The translations under genes were made by a program, and so were the position numbers. Source: a virus. Taken from it: a stretch of DNA of 26,436 bases. Below, one piece after another: positions 1-25,438 of the stretch (its first letter is position 1; every line of letters starts with the position of its first letter). The notes under the pieces are model-generated. The model saw nothing but the letters and a program-made list of their open reading frames with translations, was not told where the DNA came from and did not search any database. The stretch covers positions 1 to 26,436 of IMG/VR virus record IMGVR_UViG_3300023176_005127; one strand, given 5' to 3'.

Positions 1-512
1 TACTGAAGATTATCTTCGTTGAATTTGAAAGCAATTGCCGCCCAAATCATATAAGTTCTTTTGTTATGTAATCTGAAATTGAGAGCACCATTAGTTGCAC
101 TTGAAAAATCACTATTGATTCTGTACTTTTCATTACTATCTTGGTTCCACCCATCTATACTAAAATGTAATTCATCATATTCATTCAGAATACTAGAAAG
201 GTTTATCCACCAATCTATTTCTTTATGACTACCATTGGTAATGATTACGAGATGAATAGTTGGATTGATTTTCTTTATCCATTCAACTATCTTAAGAAAA
301 TCTTTACAGTAAATTGGATCACCATCGTTACCACAGAATGTAATACGACGAATCTCTTTGATAATATTCTCACCAATTTGATTTTGAAAAAACTCCAAAG
401 TGAGTTGACGATTTAATAGACTCTCGGGAACTTCTGCACGAGGACAACGAGGACATTTGAGAGTACAAATACTACTCGGTTCTATGTGCCAATGTAAGAG
501 TGATAGACTCAT
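1..512 (-). CDS. Radical SAM enzyme, SPASM/MoaA-like (partial, C-terminus outside window)
   Basis: The minus strand is open from an ATG at 512-510 to the window edge, giving 170 codons with no stop. The protein carries the radical-SAM cluster motif C16-x3-C20-x2-C23, which binds a 4Fe-4S cluster and cleaves S-adenosylmethionine. It continues with GNDGDP (61-66) in the place of the usual GGEP strand motif, ITNG (91-94) and a SIDG strand motif (118-121), all in the order and spacing of MoaA/PqqE/SPASM-type enzymes. The start codon overlaps the stop of gene 46 (ATGA), and no clear Shine-Dalgarno is seen, so translation is probably coupled to gene 46. The substrate cannot be told; the C-terminal half, where auxiliary clusters would lie, is missing. 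Class assignment is firm, function unknown. A peptide- or RNA-modifying role are both possible. Confidence 0.85.
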   Translation of the reverse strand, partial: MSLSLLHWHIEPSSICTLKCPRCPRAEVPESLLNRQLTLEFFQNQIGENIIKEIRRITFCGNDGDPIYCKDFLKIVEWIKKINPTIHLVIITNGSHKEIDWWINLSSILNEYDELHFSIDGWNQDSNEKYRINSDFSSATNGALNFRLHNKRTYMIWAAIAFKFNEDNLQ

Positions 513-2254
513 TGTTGGATTGGTTCGAAGTTGGTAAATCCATCTTCTTTAACAACTTCCAATACATTGTTTACACGACTAATTAATTCATTCTTATGAC
601 TAATTAACCACACACTTTTATTTTGTTCTCTTGCCATTGTTTTAAGAATTACTAAAGCATTCTCAACACCGGCATCATCCATTCCACTATCGACTAACTC
701 ATCGACAAAGATAAGATTGATTGGTGTGTATAGATTCTCCCACACATCACGGAAAGCCCAACTCAAAGAAAGTATTACACGATTCTTTTCACCACGAGAA
801 AGATTATCAAAGTCATAATCTTTTCCAAGATGAGAAATTTCTACACTTAAATCATCTTTAAATTCAATGAGGTGATTCAGACCTGTTTTTCTTATGTAAT
901 GAGTAAGTCTAGAATTTAAATAAGATAAATTCTGACTAATGATTTGTTTACGAACAAAACTATCTTTATCTGTCAGTAGTTTCAATAAGAAGTTTTGATG
1001 TTCAAGTAATGTATTACTTTCATTAATCAAAGTGTAATCAATATCTTGTAATGCTTCTTCTTTAATAGATTGAATTTGATCAGTATAAGGATTTTCCTCA
1101 ACTGCTCTCTTTTCCATTTGAACAACCAACGACTCAATAGAATGTTTATGATTTAATGCATCTTCCAAACTATTGTATTGTGTTGATGGTTTTTGTTCTA
1201 CGATTACTTGTGCTATCTCGTTTTCTTTTTCTTTTTTATTATTTTCTAATTCATCTAATTCGGTAATAAGTTGAGTGACTGATTCACTTTTCTCAGTTAA
1301 GAGTTGTGTTTGCATTTCATCGTGGAGTTGTTGTCCACATGCATGACACTTGTGATCAGACACTGCAACCAATTCTTTCTCAATACTCGTTAAAGAATTG
1401 TTCTTTATGTTAATGTTATTTTTTATTGTTGCTAAATCTGAATTGAGTGTTATTTGTTTTCTTGAATTTTCATTAATCGTTTCTATTAATTTATGATTTG
1501 CTATTTCTTTTTCAATATCAATTCCACTTAGTGCTTCTATTTGTGCTGCGTAGTTTTCTACATCTTTTATTTGTGATTCATTCCAGGCAGTATTCCTAAG
1601 TTCTAAACTTTTAATTTGTGATTCTATTGCTTTGTTTGATTCTTTTATAGCATTGATTCTAAATTCTTCACTCTTTATTTTATCTTTTACATCTTTGATT
1701 AATTCTTTTAATGTTGCTGCTTTTTCTGAAAGTATTGTAATACCTAATAGTTGTTCTATGATTTCTCTTTGGTCAGCCACTTTCATATTAAGAAACGGCT
1801 CTGTGTATGTTGTGAGTGCCACAATATGTTTAAACATTTCATGACTAATACCTAAAAGTTCTTCTATTGTATTCTGTGTTTCTCTATTTTCACCCTGTGC
1901 ACTATCATCTGATTCTGTATCACCTATATAAAGTTTTAGTATGTTTGGTTTTCTTCCTCTTTCAATTTTATAATCAGTTCCATTTTTGGTAAATTCAACA
2001 CTTACCAACATTCCCTTATCATTTGTTTTGTTTACTAAGTTTCCTAATTTAATTTTTGTTAATGCTTCACCATACAACGCATAACATAATGCATTGATGA
2101 TAGTTGTTTTACCTGTTCCATTTCTATTACCATTATCACCTAAGTCTAAGTTTTTACCCAAGACTAAAGTTAAATCGTTTTCAAATGTAATACCCTGAGT
2201 GATGTTTCCAACACTCATAAAGTTTTTGATTGTTAAGTTTTTTATCTTAATCAT
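509..2254 (-). CDS. 46: gp46-like recombination endonuclease subunit (SbcC/Rad50 ATPase)
   Basis: This 581-residue ABC-type ATPase is the partner of gp47 in the T4 equivalent of Mre11-Rad50. The complex resects double-strand ends for recombination and recombination-dependent replication. Visible motifs in order are: Walker A GNRNGTGKT (42-50); a long coiled-coil-like, Lys/Glu-rich middle (about 175-480) split by a zinc hook CHAC (303-306); the ABC signature LSRGEK (485-490); Walker B with FVDE (516-519) followed by a D-loop-like SGMD; and the H-loop histidine in ISH (H553). Length is close to T4 gp46 (560). Its ATG shares one base with the TAA of gene 47 (TAATG), and its own TGA overlaps the next ATG. 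All key residues are present, so it should be active. Confidence 0.97.
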   Translation of the reverse strand: MIKIKNLTIKNFMSVGNITQGITFENDLTLVLGKNLDLGDNGNRNGTGKTTIINALCYALYGEALTKIKLGNLVNKTNDKGMLVSVEFTKNGTDYKIERGRKPNILKLYIGDTESDDSAQGENRETQNTIEELLGISHEMFKHIVALTTYTEPFLNMKVADQREIIEQLLGITILSEKAATLKELIKDVKDKIKSEEFRINAIKESNKAIESQIKSLELRNTAWNESQIKDVENYAAQIEALSGIDIEKEIANHKLIETINENSRKQITLNSDLATIKNNINIKNNSLTSIEKELVAVSDHKCHACGQQLHDEMQTQLLTEKSESVTQLITELDELENNKKEKENEIAQVIVEQKPSTQYNSLEDALNHKHSIESLVVQMEKRAVEENPYTDQIQSIKEEALQDIDYTLINESNTLLEHQNFLLKLLTDKDSFVRKQIISQNLSYLNSRLTHYIRKTGLNHLIEFKDDLSVEISHLGKDYDFDNLSRGEKNRVILSLSWAFRDVWENLYTPINLIFVDELVDSGMDDAGVENALVILKTMAREQNKSVWLISHKNELISRVNNVLEVVKEDGFTNFEPIQQ

Positions 2255-3264
2255 TAAAGATTGTTATATATCTCAATTAGTTTTCCAGCATCATATGCAT
2301 CGGAATTAATTTTATTAATTTGATCATGAACGATTTGGTCGACAGATTGTATCTTAGAGATTTCTTCTATTTCCCCATCTTCCATCTCACCCATTACTGG
2401 TTGTAAAGATAATTCTCTTAGACCATATGTATCAATAAAAGTTTCTTTAATAAAAGTAGATTCTTCAAAATTAATTTCCACATCCATTAGTAAACGGACA
2501 TGCATATTCTTTTTTAAATACTTTTCTGGCTCTGCTATTACTTTACTTAAATTGAATGTGGAATACAATGGGCAATCTGACCAATTGTGGTATTTCGGTG
2601 AACCACCCCATTCAAGTGTCATACAACCTCTGTTAGCATCTCCATCATCTGCATAGTTATGAGGGAAACAATTACCAATGTAATGGATGTTTTTCTGTTC
2701 TTGTCTCATATGAAAATGGCCAGAAAAAACATATTCAATATCACCGAAGTGATCAGATTGTAAATGACCAGTATCTGGCATACGAACATTAGCATTCATT
2801 TTAAAGTGTGGTAATTCGAAATGACCAAAGATGTATCTAGTTTTCACATCACCAATTTTTTTATAATCTTCTTGAACTAACCAAGGAATAATTGCAACAT
2901 CATCTTGAATAAACCAATCATCAACGATGTGGATATTCTTCAAATGTTTTGCCCAGTTGACACCATGAACATCCCTTTTATCTCGATAATACAAGTCGTG
3001 GTTACCAACAATAAAATAAAAATTCTCAAACGCATCATTTAATCTTTCTAGTGCAGTTTGAGAATAATTTAAAGTATGAAGATTAATCGTTGCTCTGTTA
3101 TGATGCCAATCACCCAAAAAGATTCCTGTTTCACAACCTTCTTGTTTAGCAACAGAAATTGCCCAATCAACAAAATTTAGACAATCTTCATTGTGTTGTG
3201 TGCTATTATTTTTTAAACCGAAATGTATGTCGGTAAAACAACAGGCTTTTTTGAATAGACCCAT
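2254..3264 (-). CDS. 47: gp47-like recombination endonuclease subunit (SbcD/Mre11 nuclease)
   Basis: This 336-residue calcineurin-like metallophosphoesterase is the nuclease half of the gp46/gp47 complex. The metal-binding motifs are all visible in order: D12-x-H14, GDWHH (51-55), GNHD (87-90), GHFE with H148, and GHFH (182-185). The C-terminal third is less conserved and likely carries the capping and gp46-binding parts. Length matches T4 gp47 (339). It lies between gene 55 and gene 46, with TAATG overlaps at both ends, which predicts coupled translation and balanced amounts of the two subunits. A ribosome site is not obvious at its own start, consistent with coupling. Confidence 0.96.
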   Translation of the reverse strand: MGLFKKACCFTDIHFGLKNNSTQHNEDCLNFVDWAISVAKQEGCETGIFLGDWHHNRATINLHTLNYSQTALERLNDAFENFYFIVGNHDLYYRDKRDVHGVNWAKHLKNIHIVDDWFIQDDVAIIPWLVQEDYKKIGDVKTRYIFGHFELPHFKMNANVRMPDTGHLQSDHFGDIEYVFSGHFHMRQEQKNIHYIGNCFPHNYADDGDANRGCMTLEWGGSPKYHNWSDCPLYSTFNLSKVIAEPEKYLKKNMHVRLLMDVEINFEESTFIKETFIDTYGLRELSLQPVMGEMEDGEIEEISKIQSVDQIVHDQINKINSDAYDAGKLIEIYNNL

Positions 3265-4184
3265 TATTCCGTTTCTTCTTGTGCATGTTTAATAGCACGT
3301 TCCTTTTGTTGTTTATACATCTCCGCACTTCTTTGGTTTTCTTCTTCGTCGATTGATGCTTGTTGTCTTGTCCAACTTGGTGCTAAACCATTCTCTTCTA
3401 AAATATCATCACGAATGTTTTGCATTTTCTTCTCATTAAGAAGGACACGAGTAAATGAGTTAGTAACGATTGCGGTGTAATAAGCAAATGGATTATCTGA
3501 TTTTGCTTCATTAAATTTAAGACCTACTTGAATAAGTTGCATTAATGCTGCTCCTCTCATTTCGTCATTGTATGTATAGTTTCTCCAGTTTGATCTTGTT
3601 CCATATCTATCACATAGTTTCATATACATCTTTGCTAACTCGTCGGTTGTTTTTCCGTGTGTCTGTGAAAACCCACCATCTTCTAAACTACCTTTCCAAT
3701 GAGACTTACCGACAATATACGGAATATTGTTTTCGTCCACTCTGTAATGAAAAAATGGATGGAAGTTTGTTTTCATTGGAACTAAAACTTCATCTTCGTC
3801 ATCTGTTTCTACTGATGAATATTGATAGTCGATATCTAAGTCGTCAGCAATCTCATTAAAAAAATCAGATGAGTCATCATCTTGTGCTTTTTTCTTAGGT
3901 ACTAATGGAACATGTTCTTCTGTCATTACACGAATGACTATTTCTTGGTTAGATATGTCTTTATAATTGATTTTTTCTTCTTTTGGTAAATCACGGGAAA
4001 GTCTTTTTGCTCTTTCTTTTCTACCTTCTAATAACAAAGACTCATTAATTTCAGACACATCGTCAACGATGATGTCTTGGTCACAATCTTTTTCTTTATC
4101 CATGAAAGTACAGTATGAAATCTTACTTAAATGAATCTGAGTAAGTATGTCTCTATTATTTAAATAATTCTTTTTTCTTGGCAT
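3264..4184 (-). CDS. 55: gp55-like late-transcription sigma factor
   Basis: This 306-residue protein is the phage sigma factor expected to direct host RNA polymerase to late promoters of the ATAAATA type. The N-terminus (NYLNNRDIL, 6-14) resembles the start of T4 gp55 (NYVNNKELL). A sigma-region-2-like block lies at 200-255 (YNDEMRGAALMQ, NPFAYYTAIV, SFTRVLLNEKK), followed by NIRDDILEENGL, which I recall from marine T4-like gp55 proteins. It is much longer than T4 gp55 (185). The extra length is mainly a charged region at about 25-140, with an acidic stretch at 101-132. The C-terminus is a charged helix and lacks the hydrophobic clamp-binding tail (SLDFLYE) of T4 gp55. It is the first gene of the leftward operon and has its own strong ribosome site. 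Confidence 0.92.
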   Translation of the reverse strand: MPRKKNYLNNRDILTQIHLSKISYCTFMDKEKDCDQDIIVDDVSEINESLLLEGRKERAKRLSRDLPKEEKINYKDISNQEIVIRVMTEEHVPLVPKKKAQDDDSSDFFNEIADDLDIDYQYSSVETDDEDEVLVPMKTNFHPFFHYRVDENNIPYIVGKSHWKGSLEDGGFSQTHGKTTDELAKMYMKLCDRYGTRSNWRNYTYNDEMRGAALMQLIQVGLKFNEAKSDNPFAYYTAIVTNSFTRVLLNEKKMQNIRDDILEENGLAPSWTRQQASIDEEENQRSAEMYKQQKERAIKHAQEETE

Positions 4185-14134: not shown

Positions 14135-17100
14135 ATGGCTAGAAATCGTTCCGTTGATTTTTTACCAGAACTATTTAAAACAGAAACCAATAAAGAGTTT
14201 CTAAGTGCAACACTTGATCAATTAACTCAAGAACCTAAACTAAAAAGAACACAAGGTTATATTGGTAGAAACTTTGCAGAAGGTAATCAAGACGATGAAG
14301 ATACATATATCGTAGAACCAAACGAAGAGAGAGGAAATTATCAATTAGAACCAGCCGTCATTTTTCAAGATAGTGAAGGTAAAGTTGACGAAGCAATCAC
14401 ATATCCCGAGATTATTGATTCACTAAAAACAAGTGGTGCAGATGTAACAAGACACGATAGATTATTTTCCAACAAGATTTATAGTTGGTCTCCACTTATT
14501 GATTTTGATAAGTTTGTAAACCATTCACAATACTACTGGTTACCAGAAGGTCCAGATAGTGTTGATGTTAGTGCATCTGAAATTTCATTGACTGACAATT
14601 ATGATGTTACTAGAGGTACTGATTCATATGAAATGAGTGGTATTAGTGGAGAGAATCCAACAATTACAGTTGCAAGAGGTGGTGAATATACTTTCACTTT
14701 AAATCAAGGGGGAAATCCTTTTTGGATTCAAACGGAACCTGGTAAAGACGGATTAAGAAATGATACCGATAATATTAGTACAAGATCAGTACTTGGTGTT
14801 ACTAATAATGGATTAAGTACTGGCACAGTTACATTTGCTGTACCTTCTGCATCGGCTCAAGATTTTTATACAAACTTAACATCAATCACAGATATTGATT
14901 TGGCAACATTCAAACGATTCGATGAAATCAATGGTGCCGTTCTCAGTGAATTAAAAACAATTGATGGAGTAAGTGACTTAGAAAATAAAACCATTGTATT
15001 CTTAGATTCAACTGCAGGTAATAGTGCTGATTTGGGTTGGCAATATCTTGATTTATTTGATGATACTGGTTTAGAAGAAGATGCAAATGATGAAGTTGTT
15101 TATATCGATGCACAAGCAGATAGATATAGTGTCTATAAAATTGAATACCTAACTAGTGGTGATAGCACTGTTATAAAACTTAATAAGATTAAAGGTGTAA
15201 ACAAACACGAAAAGTTCTTAGTTACTACTGGAACTACATATAGTAATATTTCTTTTTATAAAAATTCATCTGGGTACTTTGAACAAATACCAGTTCTTAC
15301 TTCTGGTTTAGATAGACTTTATTATCAAGACGGAAATGACGATAATAAATTTGGTGTTATTAATATCGTTGACTCATCTGTAAATCCTATTTTATATGTA
15401 GATGTGGACATTGTTGGTAAAAAGAATTACACAAGTCCCAATGGAGTAGTATTTACAAATGGTTTAAAAGTTCAGTTTAGAGGAAATGTTTCCCCAACTA
15501 CATATCAAGACAAAGAATACTATGTAGAAGGTGTAGGTAAAGAAATTATCTTAGTTCCAGTAACTGATTTAGTAACACCAGAAACATACACTAATTCAAT
15601 TACACAACCATACGATAGTCAGCCGTTTGATACCAAGTCATTTGACTCATCTTTAAACTCTCCATCTGATTTAGACTTCATTACAATTAATCGTTCAAGT
15701 AATGATTTAAATCCTTGGACTAGAAGTAACAGATGGTTCCATATTGATGTTATTACTAAAACAGCAGAATACAACAATACAACATTGGTTGTTGATAATG
15801 ACTACAGAGCAAACAGACCAATCATTGAATTTGAATCAAACATTCGATTGTTCAATTATGGAACTGAAAGTAAAAAACCAATTACTGCGATTGACTTCAC
15901 AGAAACAGATGCGTTCAGTAACATCAATGGTTCATCTGGATTTGAAATAGATGGTGCATCTATTACAGATGGTGCAAGAGTTATATTTGCAGCAGATGAA
16001 GACACAGATGTAAGAAACAAAATATACACAGTAAATATTATTGATTTGGATGATGATGGTTCAACAGAAGTTGAGTTAGTAGAAACAGACTCTACAATTC
16101 TTAAAGATCAAATAGTTGTCTCTTTAATTGGGGCAACAAGACAAGGAAAATCATATCATTATGATGGAAGTGAATGGATAGAATCACAACAAAAGACTAA
16201 AGTAAATCAAGCACCTTTATTTGATTTATATGATAGTAACGGTGTTTCATATTCTAATACAACCACTTATAAAAATACAACATTTGCTGGAACAAAAATT
16301 TTCAGTTATAAAGAAGGAACAGGTGTTAAAGATACTGTTTTAGGTTTTCCTTTATCTTATTTAAATATCGACAATATCGGTGACATTGTTTATTCTAATA
16401 ATCTTTATTATGATACATTCTCTTATGGTGTACCTACAGTAACCACAACTACGGAAAATGGTTTCTTAAGACAATATTCCGACAGAACAACATACAATAA
16501 AGAATTTGGTTGGACAGAATTTATTGAAGAAGTTAGACAACCACAAGTGTTCACATTTGATTATGATGGTGTAAGTTTAATTCTTGATGTAACACAAAAA
16601 ACTAATCTCAGTATTCCAGCCCTCAAAGTTTTTGTAGATGGTACTATTGTTAATAAAGACAACTACACAGTTACGGAAGGTAACGGTAAAACAGTAATTG
16701 TTTTTAATGATGTTGATGTATACACAGTTGGCACTCAAATTGTAGTTTATATTATTAGTGATGAAGCAAGTGAAGTTGGTTTTTATCATGTACCTTCAAA
16801 TTTAGAAAATAATCCATACAATGAAAATGCAAAGGAATTTACATTAGGTGGTATTCGTAAACACTATACTAAAATTGCAGAGAACTTAACGAAACTATCA
16901 GGTGTTGTATTAGGTTCTAATAATAGTAGAGATTTAGGTGACATCGAAAAATACGGTGACACAATAATACAATCAAGTGCACCTTTACCGATTGCAGCAA
17001 AATTCCTACATAGTAGTGAATTAAATTTCTTCCAAGCACTCCAATATAGTGAACATTCTTATGAAAAATTTAAATTACAAATCATTGATTGGGTTGAAAA

Positions 17101-20100
17101 GAATGATGTCTATGATATGTCTGCAGCAGAGATATTGGATGCAGCACTTGAATATATAAATTTAGGAAAGAGTGTATCTAGCCCATTCCATAAAAGTGAT
17201 ATGCTTCCTGGTGTTTGTACACCAACGATTACAAACTACACAGTTTCGAATGTTGTCACTACAACTTACAATATGAATGAAATCTATGATTTCACAAAGG
17301 CAAATCATTCTGCGGTTCTTGTATATTTAAATGATGAAATTCTGATTAAAGATTACGATTATACAGTCGGTGAATCCACACCAACAATCACCATTCTAAA
17401 AACAATAGAGTTTGGTGATAAGATTATGATTAAAGAGTTTGAGAGTACGGTTGGTTCATCATACATTCCAAACACACCATCTAAATTGGGTTTATACACT
17501 AAGAAGAAACCAGAAAAGTATACAAACAACACATATGTAAATCCAGTAAATGTTATTCAAGGACACGATGGTAGTTTAACAGTTGCATACGATGACATCC
17601 GTGATGATGTCCTATTAGAATTTGAAACAAGAATCTTTAATAATATTAAAACTAACTCTGATATTCCTATATCAGAAACAGATGTAATCCCTGGTAAGTT
17701 CAGAACCACCGATTATAGTGAAGCAGAAATTAATACTATCCTTTCGAATGAATTTCTAAATTGGGTAGGTTGGAATAGATTAGATTATAAAACTCAAGAT
17801 TATAGTTCAACAAATGAATGGACATGGAACTATGGTAGTGCAAGTAGTAAATTAGATGGTACTTCATTAAAAGGACACTGGAGAGGTATATTCACTCACT
17901 ACTACGACACAGATCATCCACATTTACATCCTTGGGAGATGTTGGGGTTATTAGAAGAACCAAGTTGGTGGGAAGAAGAATATGGTGTTGCACCTTATAC
18001 GAGTGGAAACTTAGTTTTATGGGAAGATTTAGAAGCCGGTTTAATTAAAGAACCAGGAAATAATAGAGTTGATGAAAGATATAAAAGAACTGGTCTTACT
18101 AAAGTAATCCCAGTCGATAGCGAGGGCAATCTTTTAAATCCATTCGAAGGAATTGTTCAGAATTACAACCAAGTAGATTTTAAAAAATCTTGGGTATTTG
18201 GTGACGGTGGTCCTGTAGAGGCAGCATGGAAAAAGAGTAGTGCATATCCATTCGCATTACAAAAGTTACTTGCACTAACTAAACCAGCACAGTACTTCAC
18301 ATTATTCGCCGATAGAGATTTATATACACTTGATTCAACAAGTAATCAGTACTTGTACAATTCAAGAGACCGATTAGATGTTAGAAATGATATACAAGTA
18401 CAAACAACATCACAACCAAAACATAGTTATATAAATTGGATTGCAGATTACCATAATTCTAATGGTTGTAGTTGTGTAGAAATTTCAAATGAATTATCTG
18501 ATTTGGATGTCCGTCTTGTATATAGAATGGCTTCGTTTACAGATAAGAATTACTTAAAAATTTACACAGATAAGAGTAGTCCAGACAGTTCAAATACTGG
18601 GTTATTAATTCCAGACCAAAGTTATGAATTATTCTTACATAAGAACGAACCTTTAACAGAATTAGAATATTCATCAGTAGTAATTCAAACTTCTGCAGAT
18701 GGATATGCTGTTTATGGTCATAGTAAGACTCAACAATATTTCCAAATTTATAAGAGTATTCAAGATAGAAATGGTATTAAAGTTGGTGATTATGTATTAC
18801 CAACAAGATTCACAAAACAAGTTACATCAGTTCCGTATGGTTATAACTTTAGAACAAAAGGTGCAGTACTTGATTTCTTATCAAGTTATGGTGCTTTCTT
18901 AGAAGATAAAGGAATGATTTTCAATACTATAGAGAATGGTGTTGAACTTAATTGGAACGGAATGGCAAATGAATTTTTGGCTTGGGCTGGTAGTGATTGG
19001 GGTGAAGGTGCAATTATTAATTTAAATCCGTGTGCCCTTTCATTAGAATTTAATAAAGAGTTATTGATTGTAGATAACATTAATAATAATCCAGTTGATG
19101 CATTGGATCAGAATGAACTCCCTCTAACACCAAATGATTATGTTGTTACTCGTTTAGATAACAGTTTTAAGATTACAACAATAAACAATAAGTCAATAAA
19201 TTTAATTAGAATTAAATCAGTTAGTTACGAACATTTACTAGTACTTGATAACACAAGTGTGTTCAATGATTTAGTCTATGAGCCAGTCACTGGTCTTAGA
19301 CAACAAAGACTTCGTTTAGTTGGTTTCTCTACATACGATTGGAATGGTCAACTAGATGCACAAGGATTTATTCTAAACCAAGATAATGTAAGTGATTGGA
19401 AAGCAAATGTTTTCTATTCCAAAGGAACAATTGTCAAATACAAAAATTCATATTGGACATCTTCAACAAGATTAGAACCAGCCACAACATTTAATTTTAA
19501 TGATTGGTCTAAGATTGATTACGATAATATTAAGAAAGGATTACTTCCAAATATTGCAAATAAAGCAGAACAGATTACAGAATACTACAATAAGAAAACT
19601 ACAAATCTTGAATCAGATGTAGATTTATTGGCGATGGGTCTCATTGGATATAGACCTCGTGAATATATGAGTTCATTAGATGATGTCAGTAGAGTTAATT
19701 TCTATGGTGGGTTTATCGAAGGAAAGGGAACAACACAAAGTTCTAACAAGTTCAGAAATGTTAAATTCGATAAGAAAATCACAGATTATGAAATAAATGA
19801 AAACTGGGCAATTTTAGAATCAACATATGGAGCAAGTGATAATAAAGTTTACTATGAAGTAGAATTAGAAAATTCTAAATTACAAAACAATCCATCTATT
19901 GTAGAAGTTGTTAGTAATACCTCAACGAAAACAGAGAAACATCAAATAACAAAGATTGAAGATTTGTACGATTCATCTAAGACTTTCTCTGATACAAATA
20001 TTTTACCAATCAGAACATCCAAACCAACAGATGTAAATTTACCAAGTGCTGGTAATGTATATGCAAATGATGTTGATGTTGCAGTATTCGAATTAACGGA

Positions 20101-23100
20101 TTTAAATGATTCTGCTGGTATCGTTTATTTGAATAGTATTGAAGATGGTTCAAACATTTGGGTTGCAAAATATAGAACTTATGATTGGACGGTGTTAAGA
20201 GCACAGACACACGGAGACATTTATAGTGTTACAGAAAGTGATGATAGATTAACAATTGTATTCTATGATGATCACGAATTTGTAGCCGGTGATAATTTTG
20301 TTATTCAAGGAATGAGTTTACTCGTAAATGGGTATTACAATGTTTATGAAGTTACTGATAGTACAACTATTGTTGTAAATGGTTCACTAAGTACATCAGT
20401 TATTAATATCTCTGCCGACAGTGATACTGTCAGAGCAGATTCTACAAACTACAAAACAGACCATACATTTGGAAACTGTTTTAAATTAGTTCCAGTAAGA
20501 GTTGGTTCCGAAAGTGAATTATCAACTTCTTATTTCAATAATCTTGCAAATGGTTCTAAAGTTTGGATTGATTCTAATTCGAATGGAAAATATGATACTT
20601 ATGAGAAGAAATCTGGAACTTGGACAAGTACCAGAGAAGAGATAGATGAAGTTAACACTTCACTAATCAATAGAGTATTAATATTTGATAAGAACACAGA
20701 TAACAAGAATATAGATTTAGATTACATTGATCCAGTAAATGGAAAGATTCTTGGACAGGCTAAACAAAATATTGATTACATTACATATTCTGATCCTGCA
20801 AGATACAGTAGTACAGATTCAACTGGAATTATTTGGGGTGAAGAACATGTCGGTAAAATATGGTGGGATGTATCAAATGTTAGATTCCTAAACACACATT
20901 TTTCAGACAAGAGTTATTCAAGTAAAAATTGGGGTAAGACATTTACTGGAAGTACCATTGATATTAGACAATGGGTTAAGAGTTCTAAATCACCAGAAAA
21001 TTATGATGGTGAAGGTACAGTTGTAGATACTTCTTCTTACACACAGATTTCTACAGTAAATTCTGCTAACACTATTGTTACAAATTATTATTTCTGGGTA
21101 ACGAGTAGTGATGAATTATTTGATAATAAAACACTCAGTACAAACTCAATAAAAACATTTATTGAGAACCCAACGAGTACTGGAGTTGCATATGTTGGTT
21201 TCTTGGATAGAAGTACAGTTGCATTATTCAATACAAGAAAATACACAGAAGATGGTGTGTTGAATATTTCATTTAATTCACTTGATACAGAAAGTGCAAT
21301 CTATAACGAATACAGTTTAATTAAAGAAAACAGTGAATATGATTTCTTGAGTGATAATCTATACAAGAAATTACTAGATAGTTTGATTGGTGGTAATGAA
21401 ATTGGTTTATCAGTTCCTAATCCAGAATTAAACATTTCTCAAAAAAATGGTATTAAGTTTAGACCAAGACAGTCAATGTTTGAGAATCGTTTCCAAGCAT
21501 TAAAAGAATATTTAACTGAAGTAAACACAATTCTTGCTGGTGAAATCATTTCTACAAATAAGAGTTTCGTGTTATTAAACAAAGAACAAGTTCAACCTGG
21601 TGAATCATCTGGTAAGTGGGATACTAAGTTAGATGACTTAGAAGAATTAGCCTATCAAGATTTAGATTCAGTTTCAGTTGGACACAAATATTTAGTTGAA
21701 GTCGACACCGACAATAATGGTGGGTGGAGTATCTATGAAGTTATTTCAGGACCAAAGACACAACTTATTGAAATTCAAGAATACGATACCAAGAATGCTT
21801 GGGAATATATAGATTGGTACTTAGATTCAGATGCAGAACAAGCAACTTCAATTCAAACACTTACCGATTCATCGAAACTTACATCATTGACGGTGGATGA
21901 TGGAGAATATGTTAAAGTTACAAGTAATAGTGATGGTAAATTTGAAATTTACAAATATGAAAATAGTACTTGGGTATTAGTTGGTTTAGAAGATGGAACA
22001 ATCAAATTTAAAGAATCTCTATGGAACGGTATCTCATCACAAGACAACATTACTGTGGATACAGATATATTTACAGCAGATACTATTATCAATACTGCAG
22101 ATAGAGGAACTGGTGGCATTGAATTAAGAAATGTTTTAAAAGCAATCAATGAAGATATTTTTGTTGATGATTTAAAGATTTACAAAAACAAATTACTAAT
22201 ATCAGTATTCAACTATATTTTATCTGAACAGTCTTCAGTTAATTGGTTACAAAAAACGAGTTTCATTGATGTTACACAACGAGTAAGAGATTTAGAACAA
22301 TATTCTACTTACAAGAAAGATGATCAGACATTCTTACTAAATTACATAGAAGAGTCAAAACCATACCACACACAAATTAAAGACTTTACATTGAAGTATG
22401 GTGGATACGATCAATACAATGTAGATGCCGCAGACTTTGATTGTCCAGTATATTACGACACGACATTTGGAAAATATATTAGTCCAATACTAGATTATGA
22501 TGGAGTAGTCATTAAGTCGGATCAAAGTAATTTCGATGATGATGGAGTAGGACTTAAAGAAGTTGATTACAATATTTGGGAATTAACTCCTTGGGATAGT
22601 TGGTACAACAATAGAAACCTAATTATTGATAGTGTAGAAATTTTAAATGGTGGAACTGGATACACAGAAGCACCAACATTGACAGTTACGGGTGGTGGTG
22701 CAACAGAACAAGCAAAACTTACTTGTAGAATTAATCCGACTGGTTCCATAATTTCAGTAACAGTTGTTTCAGAAGGTAAAGGTTATACTTCTGTCCCAAC
22801 GATTACATTAGGAAATGGTGCTGGTCAAGATGCTAAATTATTACCAATCCTAAAGAATGATTTAGTAAGAACTATCAAAACTACTATGAATTATAATCGT
22901 TGTGAATATTCACACGATGTAGTGGATTGGGTATCTAATACCACATTAAGAACAACTATAGATGACACTGATGTGACAGCAGATAGTGGTGCATTGACAG
23001 TAGATTCATATGACAATGTTTATGAAGCAAATCAATTAGTAAGATACCAAAATAAACTTTATACACACAATGTAACTAGAGCATTCAAAACTAAATTCTT

Positions 23101-25438
23101 ATTAGATGATTTCACAATTGTTGATTCATCAACTTTAAGTGCGGCTGATAGAACTATGGGTTACTACACTCCTGGTGTAAATGATCCTGGTTTAAATCTT
23201 GCAATGTTGATTAATGGTATCGATTATCCAGGAGTTGACTTAAAAGATTATACATTTACAGAAACTGGAATTTATACAGTAGATTCTAATTTAGTCACAG
23301 TTGATAGTAATAGATTAACAGCCGATGTTAATAATGCTATACAAATAGATTCGAATATTAAGAGTTCGTTTACTGATTTATATCTGGGTATAAGACCAGA
23401 GGATATTAATGTTGAAGGTGGTGAGTTCATTGATGAGTATTCAAGTCATTCACCAGAAGAGTTGATTCCTGGAAGTATGTTCGATACATTAGATATGATT
23501 GTAAGAACAAGACCTGGATTTGATTATCAAGGCAATGGACATGCATATGAAGTTCAATCAACTTCATTTGAATACAATAGTTCTACTAATACATCAGGAA
23601 GTTTTGAAGATGTGGTAGCACATCCTTGTCAAATCAAAGTTATTAATTCTTCAACTAAAACATCTCTTCATGAAACTGTTGACTACACAGTGAATTGGGT
23701 AAACAAAACTGTTACTTTATTCGGTCCAGATGTATTCGATGGTAATACTATTCAAATTATTGTTTACGAAATAGGTGGTGGTAATCAATTATATCGTTCT
23801 AACTATATTGGTGATGAATTTGGAAGTGAATTAACTATTCCAGTTAAATCGTCTGAAATATATGACATTGTTATTATTCACAATGGTGAAAAATTAGGTG
23901 ATGTCTTCACTGCAACAAGTGATGGAAAAATCACAGTAGATTCAACTTTAGAAACAGCAGATTCAACTGCATTGACGGCGGATTCATCTGTAACACAGAC
24001 GAGTACTTCTACTACTATTACTTTCCAAGAATACTACGGTGCAAGTGATTTCATTTCTGTAACCGTTTTCGGATATGAAACAAACCAAAAAGAATATTCA
24101 CTCCCTACTACAACACACTTCCAAAAGAGAGGTGCTGATACTACGGAAATTACAGCAGATTCAACAATAATCACTGCTGATAATGTAAGCACAAATTATG
24201 ATTTAGGTGCGAGTGTTCTTGTCACAGGAAAGAATAAAGAAAATGCTATAGTAGAATTAAATGGTAAGAGACTTAGATCACCAGAAGCAGTCAGATATAC
24301 TGCAGATGGTGTTGAAACTGATTTCAGATTACCTACAGTTGGTGACATTGACCATACATTAGTCACTAATAGTGAAATAGTTGTATTTGTAGGCAACGAG
24401 AGACAAACATTAACCACAGACTATACAGTCATCTCAGTAACAGTTGGATTGGATACATTTAAGGAAGTAAGTTTTATTACCGCACCAAGTAGTGGTGAAA
24501 TAGTAGATGTTTACACAACACATTCCGCAGAATACACAATTGATACAAGTGGTATTTTACAAATTAAATCAAGTGTTACTGTGACTGGTGAGGATGAAAT
24601 TGATGTAACTACTTGGAACGACACATCACAGTTAGATATTATCACATCAATCTTTGTTGGTCCTACTACAGTTAGTACTCCTATCATCGAATTGTTTGAT
24701 AGTGGTGGATTCGATTCGGTTTCATTTGATTTTGTTGGTTCAAGTTCATCTGATATAAATTTATTTGACTTGGGTAGAGATGTTACAACAACACAGAGAG
24801 TTTATGTCACATTGAATGGTGACTATCTTACCCCTGATGTTGATTATTCAGTAGAAGGTCAGAATATACTTTTAGCAGGAGAGTTAATTGGACCAACCGA
24901 TGAAGTCATTGTGACAAGTATTACAAGTAATCTTGTTCCTGATGCATTGTCGTTTAGATATTTCAAAGATATGAATGGAAACTCTGCGATGTATAGAATC
25001 TCTACATGTTGTTTGAATAGAGTAGAACTAACAAGAGACTTATTAGAAACTGACGATACAATTTATGTTAATGATGTAAGTAATATCGCAATTCCAAATT
25101 TGACTTTGGGTAATTTCGGAATTGTTATGATTGAAGGTGAAAGAATCACATTCAGAGAAATTGATACAGTCAACAAAACATTGAGTGGATTGAGAAGAGG
25201 AACTGCAGGTACTGGTTATGTCAGTAAACATTTAAAAGGTTCTCAAGTAACTGACATTTCTGCACAGAACCTTGTTGATAATACTGTAATAGAGACAACT
25301 ACATTGGGTTCTGATCAACGAGAAAGTTCATTTAGTTATGACAAGGTTTGGTATGCACAAGGAACATCTACTGCAAGTAATGGTATCTCCTTACAGAACC
25401 AAACAACAGTTCAGGCAAACTTTGTAAAACAGAGGTAA
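14135..25438 (+). CDS. Giant baseplate/tail structural protein (gp7-like position), 3767 residues
   Basis: One uninterrupted frame. The start is one base after the gene 6 stop, with GGAG 10 bases upstream. Residues 1-140 form a conserved anchor (FLPELFKTETNKEFLSATLD, GYIGRNFAEG, DRLFSNKIYSWSPLIDFDKF, QYYWLPEGP). Residues about 172-246 are cupredoxin-like. Further conserved blocks, which I recall from giant tail proteins of marine T4-like and jumbo phages, are: NEFLNWVGWNRLDYKTQD, HPHLHPWEMLGL and LVLWEDLEAG (about 1204-1310); WNGMANEFLAWAGSDWGEGA (about 1607); KIWWDVSNVRFL (about 2241); KFRPRQSMFENRFQALKEYL (about 2441); and a SFIDVTQRVRDLEQY to YIEESKPYHTQIKDF pair (about 2709-2752). After 2830 come beta modules, T-A/V-D-S repeats, and an end domain (3642-3695). 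Position after gene 6 matches T4 gene 7, but T4 gp7 is 1032 residues and similarity is not evident. Wedge/baseplate structural role likely; no enzyme motif seen. Confidence 0.72.
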   Translation: MARNRSVDFLPELFKTETNKEFLSATLDQLTQEPKLKRTQGYIGRNFAEGNQDDEDTYIVEPNEERGNYQLEPAVIFQDSEGKVDEAITYPEIIDSLKTSGADVTRHDRLFSNKIYSWSPLIDFDKFVNHSQYYWLPEGPDSVDVSASEISLTDNYDVTRGTDSYEMSGISGENPTITVARGGEYTFTLNQGGNPFWIQTEPGKDGLRNDTDNISTRSVLGVTNNGLSTGTVTFAVPSASAQDFYTNLTSITDIDLATFKRFDEINGAVLSELKTIDGVSDLENKTIVFLDSTAGNSADLGWQYLDLFDDTGLEEDANDEVVYIDAQADRYSVYKIEYLTSGDSTVIKLNKIKGVNKHEKFLVTTGTTYSNISFYKNSSGYFEQIPVLTSGLDRLYYQDGNDDNKFGVINIVDSSVNPILYVDVDIVGKKNYTSPNGVVFTNGLKVQFRGNVSPTTYQDKEYYVEGVGKEIILVPVTDLVTPETYTNSITQPYDSQPFDTKSFDSSLNSPSDLDFITINRSSNDLNPWTRSNRWFHIDVITKTAEYNNTTLVVDNDYRANRPIIEFESNIRLFNYGTESKKPITAIDFTETDAFSNINGSSGFEIDGASITDGARVIFAADEDTDVRNKIYTVNIIDLDDDGSTEVELVETDSTILKDQIVVSLIGATRQGKSYHYDGSEWIESQQKTKVNQAPLFDLYDSNGVSYSNTTTYKNTTFAGTKIFSYKEGTGVKDTVLGFPLSYLNIDNIGDIVYSNNLYYDTFSYGVPTVTTTTENGFLRQYSDRTTYNKEFGWTEFIEEVRQPQVFTFDYDGVSLILDVTQKTNLSIPALKVFVDGTIVNKDNYTVTEGNGKTVIVFNDVDVYTVGTQIVVYIISDEASEVGFYHVPSNLENNPYNENAKEFTLGGIRKHYTKIAENLTKLSGVVLGSNNSRDLGDIEKYGDTIIQSSAPLPIAAKFLHSSELNFFQALQYSEHSYEKFKLQIIDWVEKNDVYDMSAAEILDAALEYINLGKSVSSPFHKSDMLPGVCTPTITNYTVSNVVTTTYNMNEIYDFTKANHSAVLVYLNDEILIKDYDYTVGESTPTITILKTIEFGDKIMIKEFESTVGSSYIPNTPSKLGLYTKKKPEKYTNNTYVNPVNVIQGHDGSLTVAYDDIRDDVLLEFETRIFNNIKTNSDIPISETDVIPGKFRTTDYSEAEINTILSNEFLNWVGWNRLDYKTQDYSSTNEWTWNYGSASSKLDGTSLKGHWRGIFTHYYDTDHPHLHPWEMLGLLEEPSWWEEEYGVAPYTSGNLVLWEDLEAGLIKEPGNNRVDERYKRTGLTKVIPVDSEGNLLNPFEGIVQNYNQVDFKKSWVFGDGGPVEAAWKKSSAYPFALQKLLALTKPAQYFTLFADRDLYTLDSTSNQYLYNSRDRLDVRNDIQVQTTSQPKHSYINWIADYHNSNGCSCVEISNELSDLDVRLVYRMASFTDKNYLKIYTDKSSPDSSNTGLLIPDQSYELFLHKNEPLTELEYSSVVIQTSADGYAVYGHSKTQQYFQIYKSIQDRNGIKVGDYVLPTRFTKQVTSVPYGYNFRTKGAVLDFLSSYGAFLEDKGMIFNTIENGVELNWNGMANEFLAWAGSDWGEGAIINLNPCALSLEFNKELLIVDNINNNPVDALDQNELPLTPNDYVVTRLDNSFKITTINNKSINLIRIKSVSYEHLLVLDNTSVFNDLVYEPVTGLRQQRLRLVGFSTYDWNGQLDAQGFILNQDNVSDWKANVFYSKGTIVKYKNSYWTSSTRLEPATTFNFNDWSKIDYDNIKKGLLPNIANKAEQITEYYNKKTTNLESDVDLLAMGLIGYRPREYMSSLDDVSRVNFYGGFIEGKGTTQSSNKFRNVKFDKKITDYEINENWAILESTYGASDNKVYYEVELENSKLQNNPSIVEVVSNTSTKTEKHQITKIEDLYDSSKTFSDTNILPIRTSKPTDVNLPSAGNVYANDVDVAVFELTDLNDSAGIVYLNSIEDGSNIWVAKYRTYDWTVLRAQTHGDIYSVTESDDRLTIVFYDDHEFVAGDNFVIQGMSLLVNGYYNVYEVTDSTTIVVNGSLSTSVINISADSDTVRADSTNYKTDHTFGNCFKLVPVRVGSESELSTSYFNNLANGSKVWIDSNSNGKYDTYEKKSGTWTSTREEIDEVNTSLINRVLIFDKNTDNKNIDLDYIDPVNGKILGQAKQNIDYITYSDPARYSSTDSTGIIWGEEHVGKIWWDVSNVRFLNTHFSDKSYSSKNWGKTFTGSTIDIRQWVKSSKSPENYDGEGTVVDTSSYTQISTVNSANTIVTNYYFWVTSSDELFDNKTLSTNSIKTFIENPTSTGVAYVGFLDRSTVALFNTRKYTEDGVLNISFNSLDTESAIYNEYSLIKENSEYDFLSDNLYKKLLDSLIGGNEIGLSVPNPELNISQKNGIKFRPRQSMFENRFQALKEYLTEVNTILAGEIISTNKSFVLLNKEQVQPGESSGKWDTKLDDLEELAYQDLDSVSVGHKYLVEVDTDNNGGWSIYEVISGPKTQLIEIQEYDTKNAWEYIDWYLDSDAEQATSIQTLTDSSKLTSLTVDDGEYVKVTSNSDGKFEIYKYENSTWVLVGLEDGTIKFKESLWNGISSQDNITVDTDIFTADTIINTADRGTGGIELRNVLKAINEDIFVDDLKIYKNKLLISVFNYILSEQSSVNWLQKTSFIDVTQRVRDLEQYSTYKKDDQTFLLNYIEESKPYHTQIKDFTLKYGGYDQYNVDAADFDCPVYYDTTFGKYISPILDYDGVVIKSDQSNFDDDGVGLKEVDYNIWELTPWDSWYNNRNLIIDSVEILNGGTGYTEAPTLTVTGGGATEQAKLTCRINPTGSIISVTVVSEGKGYTSVPTITLGNGAGQDAKLLPILKNDLVRTIKTTMNYNRCEYSHDVVDWVSNTTLRTTIDDTDVTADSGALTVDSYDNVYEANQLVRYQNKLYTHNVTRAFKTKFLLDDFTIVDSSTLSAADRTMGYYTPGVNDPGLNLAMLINGIDYPGVDLKDYTFTETGIYTVDSNLVTVDSNRLTADVNNAIQIDSNIKSSFTDLYLGIRPEDINVEGGEFIDEYSSHSPEELIPGSMFDTLDMIVRTRPGFDYQGNGHAYEVQSTSFEYNSSTNTSGSFEDVVAHPCQIKVINSSTKTSLHETVDYTVNWVNKTVTLFGPDVFDGNTIQIIVYEIGGGNQLYRSNYIGDEFGSELTIPVKSSEIYDIVIIHNGEKLGDVFTATSDGKITVDSTLETADSTALTADSSVTQTSTSTTITFQEYYGASDFISVTVFGYETNQKEYSLPTTTHFQKRGADTTEITADSTIITADNVSTNYDLGASVLVTGKNKENAIVELNGKRLRSPEAVRYTADGVETDFRLPTVGDIDHTLVTNSEIVVFVGNERQTLTTDYTVISVTVGLDTFKEVSFITAPSSGEIVDVYTTHSAEYTIDTSGILQIKSSVTVTGEDEIDVTTWNDTSQLDIITSIFVGPTTVSTPIIELFDSGGFDSVSFDFVGSSSSDINLFDLGRDVTTTQRVYVTLNGDYLTPDVDYSVEGQNILLAGELIGPTDEVIVTSITSNLVPDALSFRYFKDMNGNSAMYRISTCCLNRVELTRDLLETDDTIYVNDVSNIAIPNLTLGNFGIVMIEGERITFREIDTVNKTLSGLRRGTAGTGYVSKHLKGSQVTDISAQNLVDNTVIETTTLGSDQRESSFSYDKVWYAQGTSTASNGISLQNQTTVQANFVKQR

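Follow-up and report, generated by a model that had tools for sequence, protein, structure and literature searches.

The window analyzed here, meaning the whole stretch of DNA under study, is an entire public virus record, 26,436 bases long, and begins inside a radical-SAM (rSAM) gene, so that the open reading frame (ORF) of this gene is open at the contig end. On the minus strand the gene order is late sigma factor, gp47, gp46, and rSAM (Table 1), with successive junctions that overlap by 1, 1, and 4 nucleotides; at the last of these, which reads AACAATGAGTC, gp46 ends at position 509 and the ATG of the rSAM gene occupies positions 512 to 510. A preliminary description of this DNA had reported this ATGA overlap with the gp46 stop, a CxxxCxxC motif at residues 16 to 23, radical-SAM identity, and a place as the fourth gene of a sigma-47-46 operon, and each of these observations stands: the motif is formed by C16, C20, and C23 of the window ORF exactly as claimed, the ORF matches Pfam Radical_SAM above the cut-off (PF04055; E = 6.7e-9; 36.6 bits versus a cut-off of 29.5), and the operon position is borne out by the minus-strand gene order together with PHROG matches. 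The rSAM gene behind gp46 is thus real. All 75 homologues in the alignment keep the Cys motif unchanged, and dN/dS values between close orthologue pairs are 0.02 to 0.13, which together exclude a chance ORF.

Table 1. Features of the sigma-47-46-rSAM gene series in the window
Feature	Positions	Strand	Basis
Radical-SAM (rSAM) protein, N-terminal 170 aa, cut by contig end	3..512	(-)	ORF and Pfam; Twitch-type in orthologues
CTLKCPRC codons, CxxxCxxC ligands of the SAM-binding [4Fe-4S] cluster, residues 16-23	444..467	(-)	Sequence; invariant in alignment
rSAM ATG / gp46 stop (ATGA), exact 4-nt overlap	509..512	(-)	Sequence; same overlap in relatives (46/103 gp46-rSAM junctions)
gp46 / SbcC-like recombination endonuclease subunit	509..2254	(-)	phrog_77, E=7e-101; 50% identical to PA5oct
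gp47 / SbcD-like recombination nuclease	2254..3264	(-)	phrog_100, E=3e-60
Late-transcription sigma factor (gp55-like), first gene of the operon	3264..4184	(-)	phrog_12791, E=4.8e-79

Upstream of the sigma gene we noted a TATAAATA motif, and such motifs are no commoner than chance when compared with shuffled sequences; an early or late promoter assignment was likewise rejected, as consensus matches were no better than in shuffles, and these results lend no support to the expression ahead of late structural genes that the preliminary description had suggested. The structural region of the window contains a single, unusually long ORF of 3767 aa (14135-25438, plus strand), and similarly giant virion structural genes are found in Atu_ph07 and Phosso.

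A scan for a contig overlapping the window end, from which the C-terminal half of the protein could be recovered, found none, and because the contig ends inside the gene we studied this half in orthologues. A first scan yielded L002, whose rSAM is 64% identical to the window protein, and L003, in which no gp46 was recognized near the rSAM gene; a profile scan of viral contigs then detected 474 relatives, and 80 of these were retrieved. Full-length orthologues are ∼340 aa long, and their C-terminal half carries CX12GX4C followed by CX3C, nearly invariant across the alignment. At the level of sequence this arrangement is typical of a Twitch-type auxiliary cluster, agreeing with the C-terminal CX9-15GX4C and further Cys pair by which SPASM/Twitch domains are recognized, and the preliminary description had raised the possibility of just such extra Cys clusters. 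A structural model of the L002 protein built from the 75-sequence alignment (pLDDT 93.6, pTM 0.92) has, at full length, the partial TIM-barrel fold of the radical SAM superfamily and aligns with solved rSAM enzymes at Z scores of 12 to 18. The best Foldseek match was BlsE, a sugar-nucleoside decarboxylase (E = 1e-9), and the nearest solved structures were BlsE, SkfB, viperin, anSME, SuiB, DesII, MoaA, and BtrN. Pfam and the predicted fold place the protein in the SPASM/Twitch class, with the fold giving a class and not a substrate. Two named families were rejected by their curated models: MoaA (TIGR02666), for which the window protein scored 18.7 bits and an orthologue 33.9 against an equivalog cut-off of 284, and the tungsten-cofactor maturase (TIGR04317), with 34.9 and 40.3 bits against a cut-off of 380.

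The pairing with gp46 that the preliminary description had suggested checking in related phages recurs widely. Among loci fetched by gp46 similarity alone, which are unbiased with respect to the rSAM and were counted where both ends of a gap were visible, the gap that separates gp46 from the nuclease gene after it is occupied at 54 of 70 loci, with an rSAM gene present at 45 of the 70; rSAM genes also lie in the 47-46 gap (12/72) and in the sigma-47 gap (2/54). We found no description of the gp46-rSAM pairing, or of the rSAM-carbamoyltransferase cassette treated below, in a library of openly licensed papers. The pairing is not constant, however, and the idea that the rSAM is an obligate companion of gp46/47 (SbcCD) was rejected, since no rSAM was found behind gp46 in the cultured gp46 relatives PA5oct, Atu_ph07, Phosso, and SCTP-2, or in 25 of the 70 gp46-selected loci. 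Other occupants of the gaps include amidinotransferases (with profile matches to GATM, SxtG, and inosamine-phosphate amidinotransferase at E values down to 7e-16), B12-type rSAMs, short-chain dehydrogenases (SDRs), an AMP-binding enzyme (AMP-ligase), and many proteins without assignment. The slots are thus empty in some relatives and filled with different enzyme families in others, a variation of content at a fixed place of the kind seen in the CP220 cargo module. The correlation of protein distances across 54 dereplicated loci is 0.75 for gp47 and gp46 and 0.25 for rSAM and gp46, and in L064 and L068 the same rSAM is encoded at another genomic site, apart from gp46. Because slot contents vary and the rSAM tree follows that of gp46 weakly, we conclude that the rSAM is interchangeable cargo in a variable slot of a core operon and not a recombination factor.

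The gene that follows the closest relatives of the window rSAM (type I, 60 to 80% identical) encodes either a SegE-type GIY-YIG nuclease (71 loci) or, at the same position, an unrelated PDDEXK_15 protein (18 loci); examples of this next nuclease lie at 9027-9464 in L002 and 10013-10585 in L076. The first of these is labeled "NAD synthetase" by phrog_447 and SegE_GIY-YIG by Pfam, and the PHROG name appears to be wrong. Most B12-type rSAMs in the slots adjoin proteins of ∼130 to 190 aa without a Pfam match (for example, L093 3580-4116, L107 10769-11308, and L145 5652-6167), which could be partners or substrates.

A link to SDRs emerges from the relatives. In a related rSAM subfamily with the motif CGSYGDPIM, a small SDR directly follows the rSAM gene in L093, L115, L145, and L147, and the two are fused in one frame in phage contigs L095, L121, L144, and L163; around type I rSAMs an SDR is usually lacking from the slot, so the link comes from related subfamilies. 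The nearest bacterial relatives of type I are mostly from Bdellovibrionota, where a homologous SDR adjoins the gene in L170, L171, L172, L174, L175, and L210; none was found beside it in L173 and L209. In a broad Bdellovibrionota search, only 4 of 241 genomes had this close bacterial form at E ≤ 1e-70, which makes it rare, and some of the bacterial relatives, which are chromosomal, adjoin glycosyltransferase- or PhyH-like genes. Enzymes that are fused or encoded side by side usually act on the same substrate, and since the presence of an SDR implies that this is a small compound with a carbonyl or alcohol group, tailoring of a small molecule is favored over modification of a peptide or RNA. 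L169, which is labeled Candidatus Pacearchaeota and is probably a misbinned phage contig, also has a type I rSAM (40% identity) amid phage-looking ORFs.

Within the clade the rSAM load is high. At E ≤ 0.001, each of twelve long contigs (115 to 345 kb) gave between 8 and 19 Radical_SAM matches, some of them above the Pfam cut-off in all twelve; for comparison, PF04055 matches number 0 in PA5oct, 4 in Atu_ph07 (at 116-123 kb), 4 in Phosso, and 11 in Campylobacter phage F379. A second conserved multi-rSAM cassette is present in 10 of the 11 genomes in which tandem arrays were read, most with a carbamoyltransferase, and comprises five rSAM genes together with two families without assignment (L192-L196, L199-L203). 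The cassette opens with an unassigned protein bracketed by a pair of genes from a single rSAM family; three rSAM/SPASM genes come next, and after them a further unassigned protein and, in most genomes, the carbamoyltransferase. Comparison of cassette families 6 and 7 with solved structures gave no useful match, and an amidinotransferase-like ORF flanks some of these cassettes. Three rSAM genes of contig L198 (269,730 bases) match a recurrent three-rSAM module of Bdellovibrionota (L174, L179, L182, L183, L187), two at 40 to 51% identity and one at 31 to 37%, a likeness in sequence that hints at gene exchange or host range.

We hold with moderate confidence that the rSAM/Twitch enzyme is interchangeable metabolic cargo of the sigma-47-46 operon that most likely serves small-molecule or glycan tailoring, because in relatives SDRs are fused to or neighbor such genes and amidinotransferases and carbamoyltransferases accompany them. 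The preliminary interpretation, which listed host takeover, nucleotide or RNA modification, and peptide modification, was too open in light of this company and is only partly supported. The phages that carry it form a large, uncultured jumbo clade with PA5oct and Atu_ph07 as distant relatives, and the gene overlaps lead us to infer that the operon drives rSAM expression, such that each cargo gene with an overlapping start codon would be expressed with the operon and need no promoter of its own. The enzyme would use S-adenosylmethionine at its [4Fe-4S] cluster for hydrogen abstraction, most likely from a small molecule, with the C-terminal auxiliary cluster either accepting electrons or binding the substrate. 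Likely substrates are intermediates of the sugar, cyclitol, or amino-sugar type, and in related pathways an NAD(P)-dependent SDR would be paired with the reaction; the phage of the window may use such a partner as well. The presumed purpose is a product that feeds a tailored surface glycan or a secondary-metabolite-like compound made during infection.

By fold alone the small-molecule reading is not favored, as the model is equally close to the peptide maturases SuiB, SkfB, and anSME (Z 16 to 18). This closeness is consistent with a maturase that modifies a ribosomal peptide, a virion protein, or a host protein in the manner of sactipeptide or ranthipeptide maturases, as are NCBIfam matches to WgkB, StsB, and other maturases of peptides and the 130- to 190-aa proteins beside B12-type rSAMs in the same slots. 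The NCBIfam matches are weak, however, with scores far under the curated cut-offs (e.g., 29 versus 650 bits), and an SDR fusion is a better fit to small-molecule redox chemistry. Further, the preliminary description had held that a neighboring Cys-rich or precursor peptide would point to a modification system, but the type I rSAM leaves no room for one: the next gene overlaps or lies within 60 nucleotides in 86 of 88 loci and the upstream genes overlap. An rSAM maturase of ribosomally synthesized peptides (RiPPs) with an adjacent precursor was rejected on these grounds, and we regard peptide or protein maturation in general as unlikely.

We give still less credence to nucleotide or nucleic acid modification, in which the product would be a modified nucleotide or a hypermodified DNA base shielding phage DNA, or the target would be RNA. 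Viperin-like nucleotide enzymes came first in a solved-structure profile search, yet only at E values of 0.001 to 0.005, and membership in the viperins was rejected, the orthologues having an auxiliary-cluster Cys set; viperins are not known to have an auxiliary cluster such as this set suggests. Phage DNA modification pathways do include carbamoyltransferases and rSAMs. DNA modification systems are described for PA5oct (PMC7824862). Against this, we saw no base-specific kinase, transglycosylase, or DNA-targeting domain in the slots, and the bacterial relatives adjoin SDR and, in some cases, glycosyltransferase- or PhyH-like genes on chromosomes. It is very improbable that the rSAM works with gp46/47 in recombination or repair and has kept its adjacency for that role. 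In most relatives it does follow gp46, with an overlap between the two genes, and it is under strong purifying selection, but its absence from this position in all four cultured phages and many other loci, its replacement in the slot by unrelated enzymes, its displacement in L064 and L068, and its poor congruence with gp46 speak against such a partnership.

Returning to metabolic cargo devoted to small-molecule or glycan tailoring, we tentatively put forward a broader scenario, itself unlikely in its full form, in which the clade runs a conserved biosynthetic program of 8 to 19 rSAMs per genome together with carbamoyl- and amidinotransferases. The recombination operon would be the site where pathway variants are swapped in, modules would be held in common with Bdellovibrionota, and the product would be a guanidinylated or carbamoylated sugar-like compound made in infection. 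The reactions catalyzed by enzymes of the rSAM superfamily are chemically demanding and mostly belong to anaerobic or secondary metabolism, and their abundance in a core operon of a lytic-type phage clade would imply biosynthesis under phage direction. The rSAM-SDR fusion provides a concrete two-enzyme unit for expression and assay, while the fixed slot behind gp46 offers a simple probe for gathering many new phage enzymes. More generally, adjacency to a recombination gene need not mean a recombination function.

Several known systems resemble the one described here in part. The T4-related Campylobacter phages CP220 and CPt10 are reported to encode 11 to 12 rSAM proteins and a swappable five-rSAM module with a glycine amidinotransferase (PMC2853527). 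These two and F379 (all Firehammervirus), the last of which is among the nearest annotated matches at 29% identity, have multiple, interchangeable rSAMs in common with the window clade, but their module lies in a central variable region, whereas the cargo of the window clade sits inside the sigma-47-46 operon of uncultured jumbo phages, includes rSAM-SDR fusions, and has less than 30% identity to theirs. Pelagimyophages carry rSAM cassettes in a host recognition cluster, close to LPS genes and variable even among closely related phages (PMC7029224), in a genomic location and with a gene set unlike those of the window clade. For jumbo cyanophages such as S-SSM6a, a carbohydrate/secondary-metabolite cluster containing a carbamoyltransferase has been described and secondary-metabolite synthesis proposed (PMC7824862); the passage on S-SSM6a mentions no rSAM enzyme, and the location and gene set again differ. 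The sugar and aminocyclitol SPASM-Twitch enzymes BlsE, DesII, and BtrN share the predicted fold (Z 14 to 17) and, near the C terminus, the Cys residues for a single auxiliary cluster, but only 12 to 17% sequence identity, and the second Cys pair of the phage orthologues is CX3C. The rSAMs of the rSAM-SDR loci of Bdellovibrionota are 31 to 40% identical to the phage family and have the same SDR type adjacent, but are chromosomal and without gp46, unlike the phage slot. While interchangeable multi-rSAM modules were already known (PMC2853527), the uncultured jumbo phage clade, the cargo within a sigma-47-46 operon, the rSAM-SDR fusions, and the modules common to these phages and Bdellovibrionota are new here.
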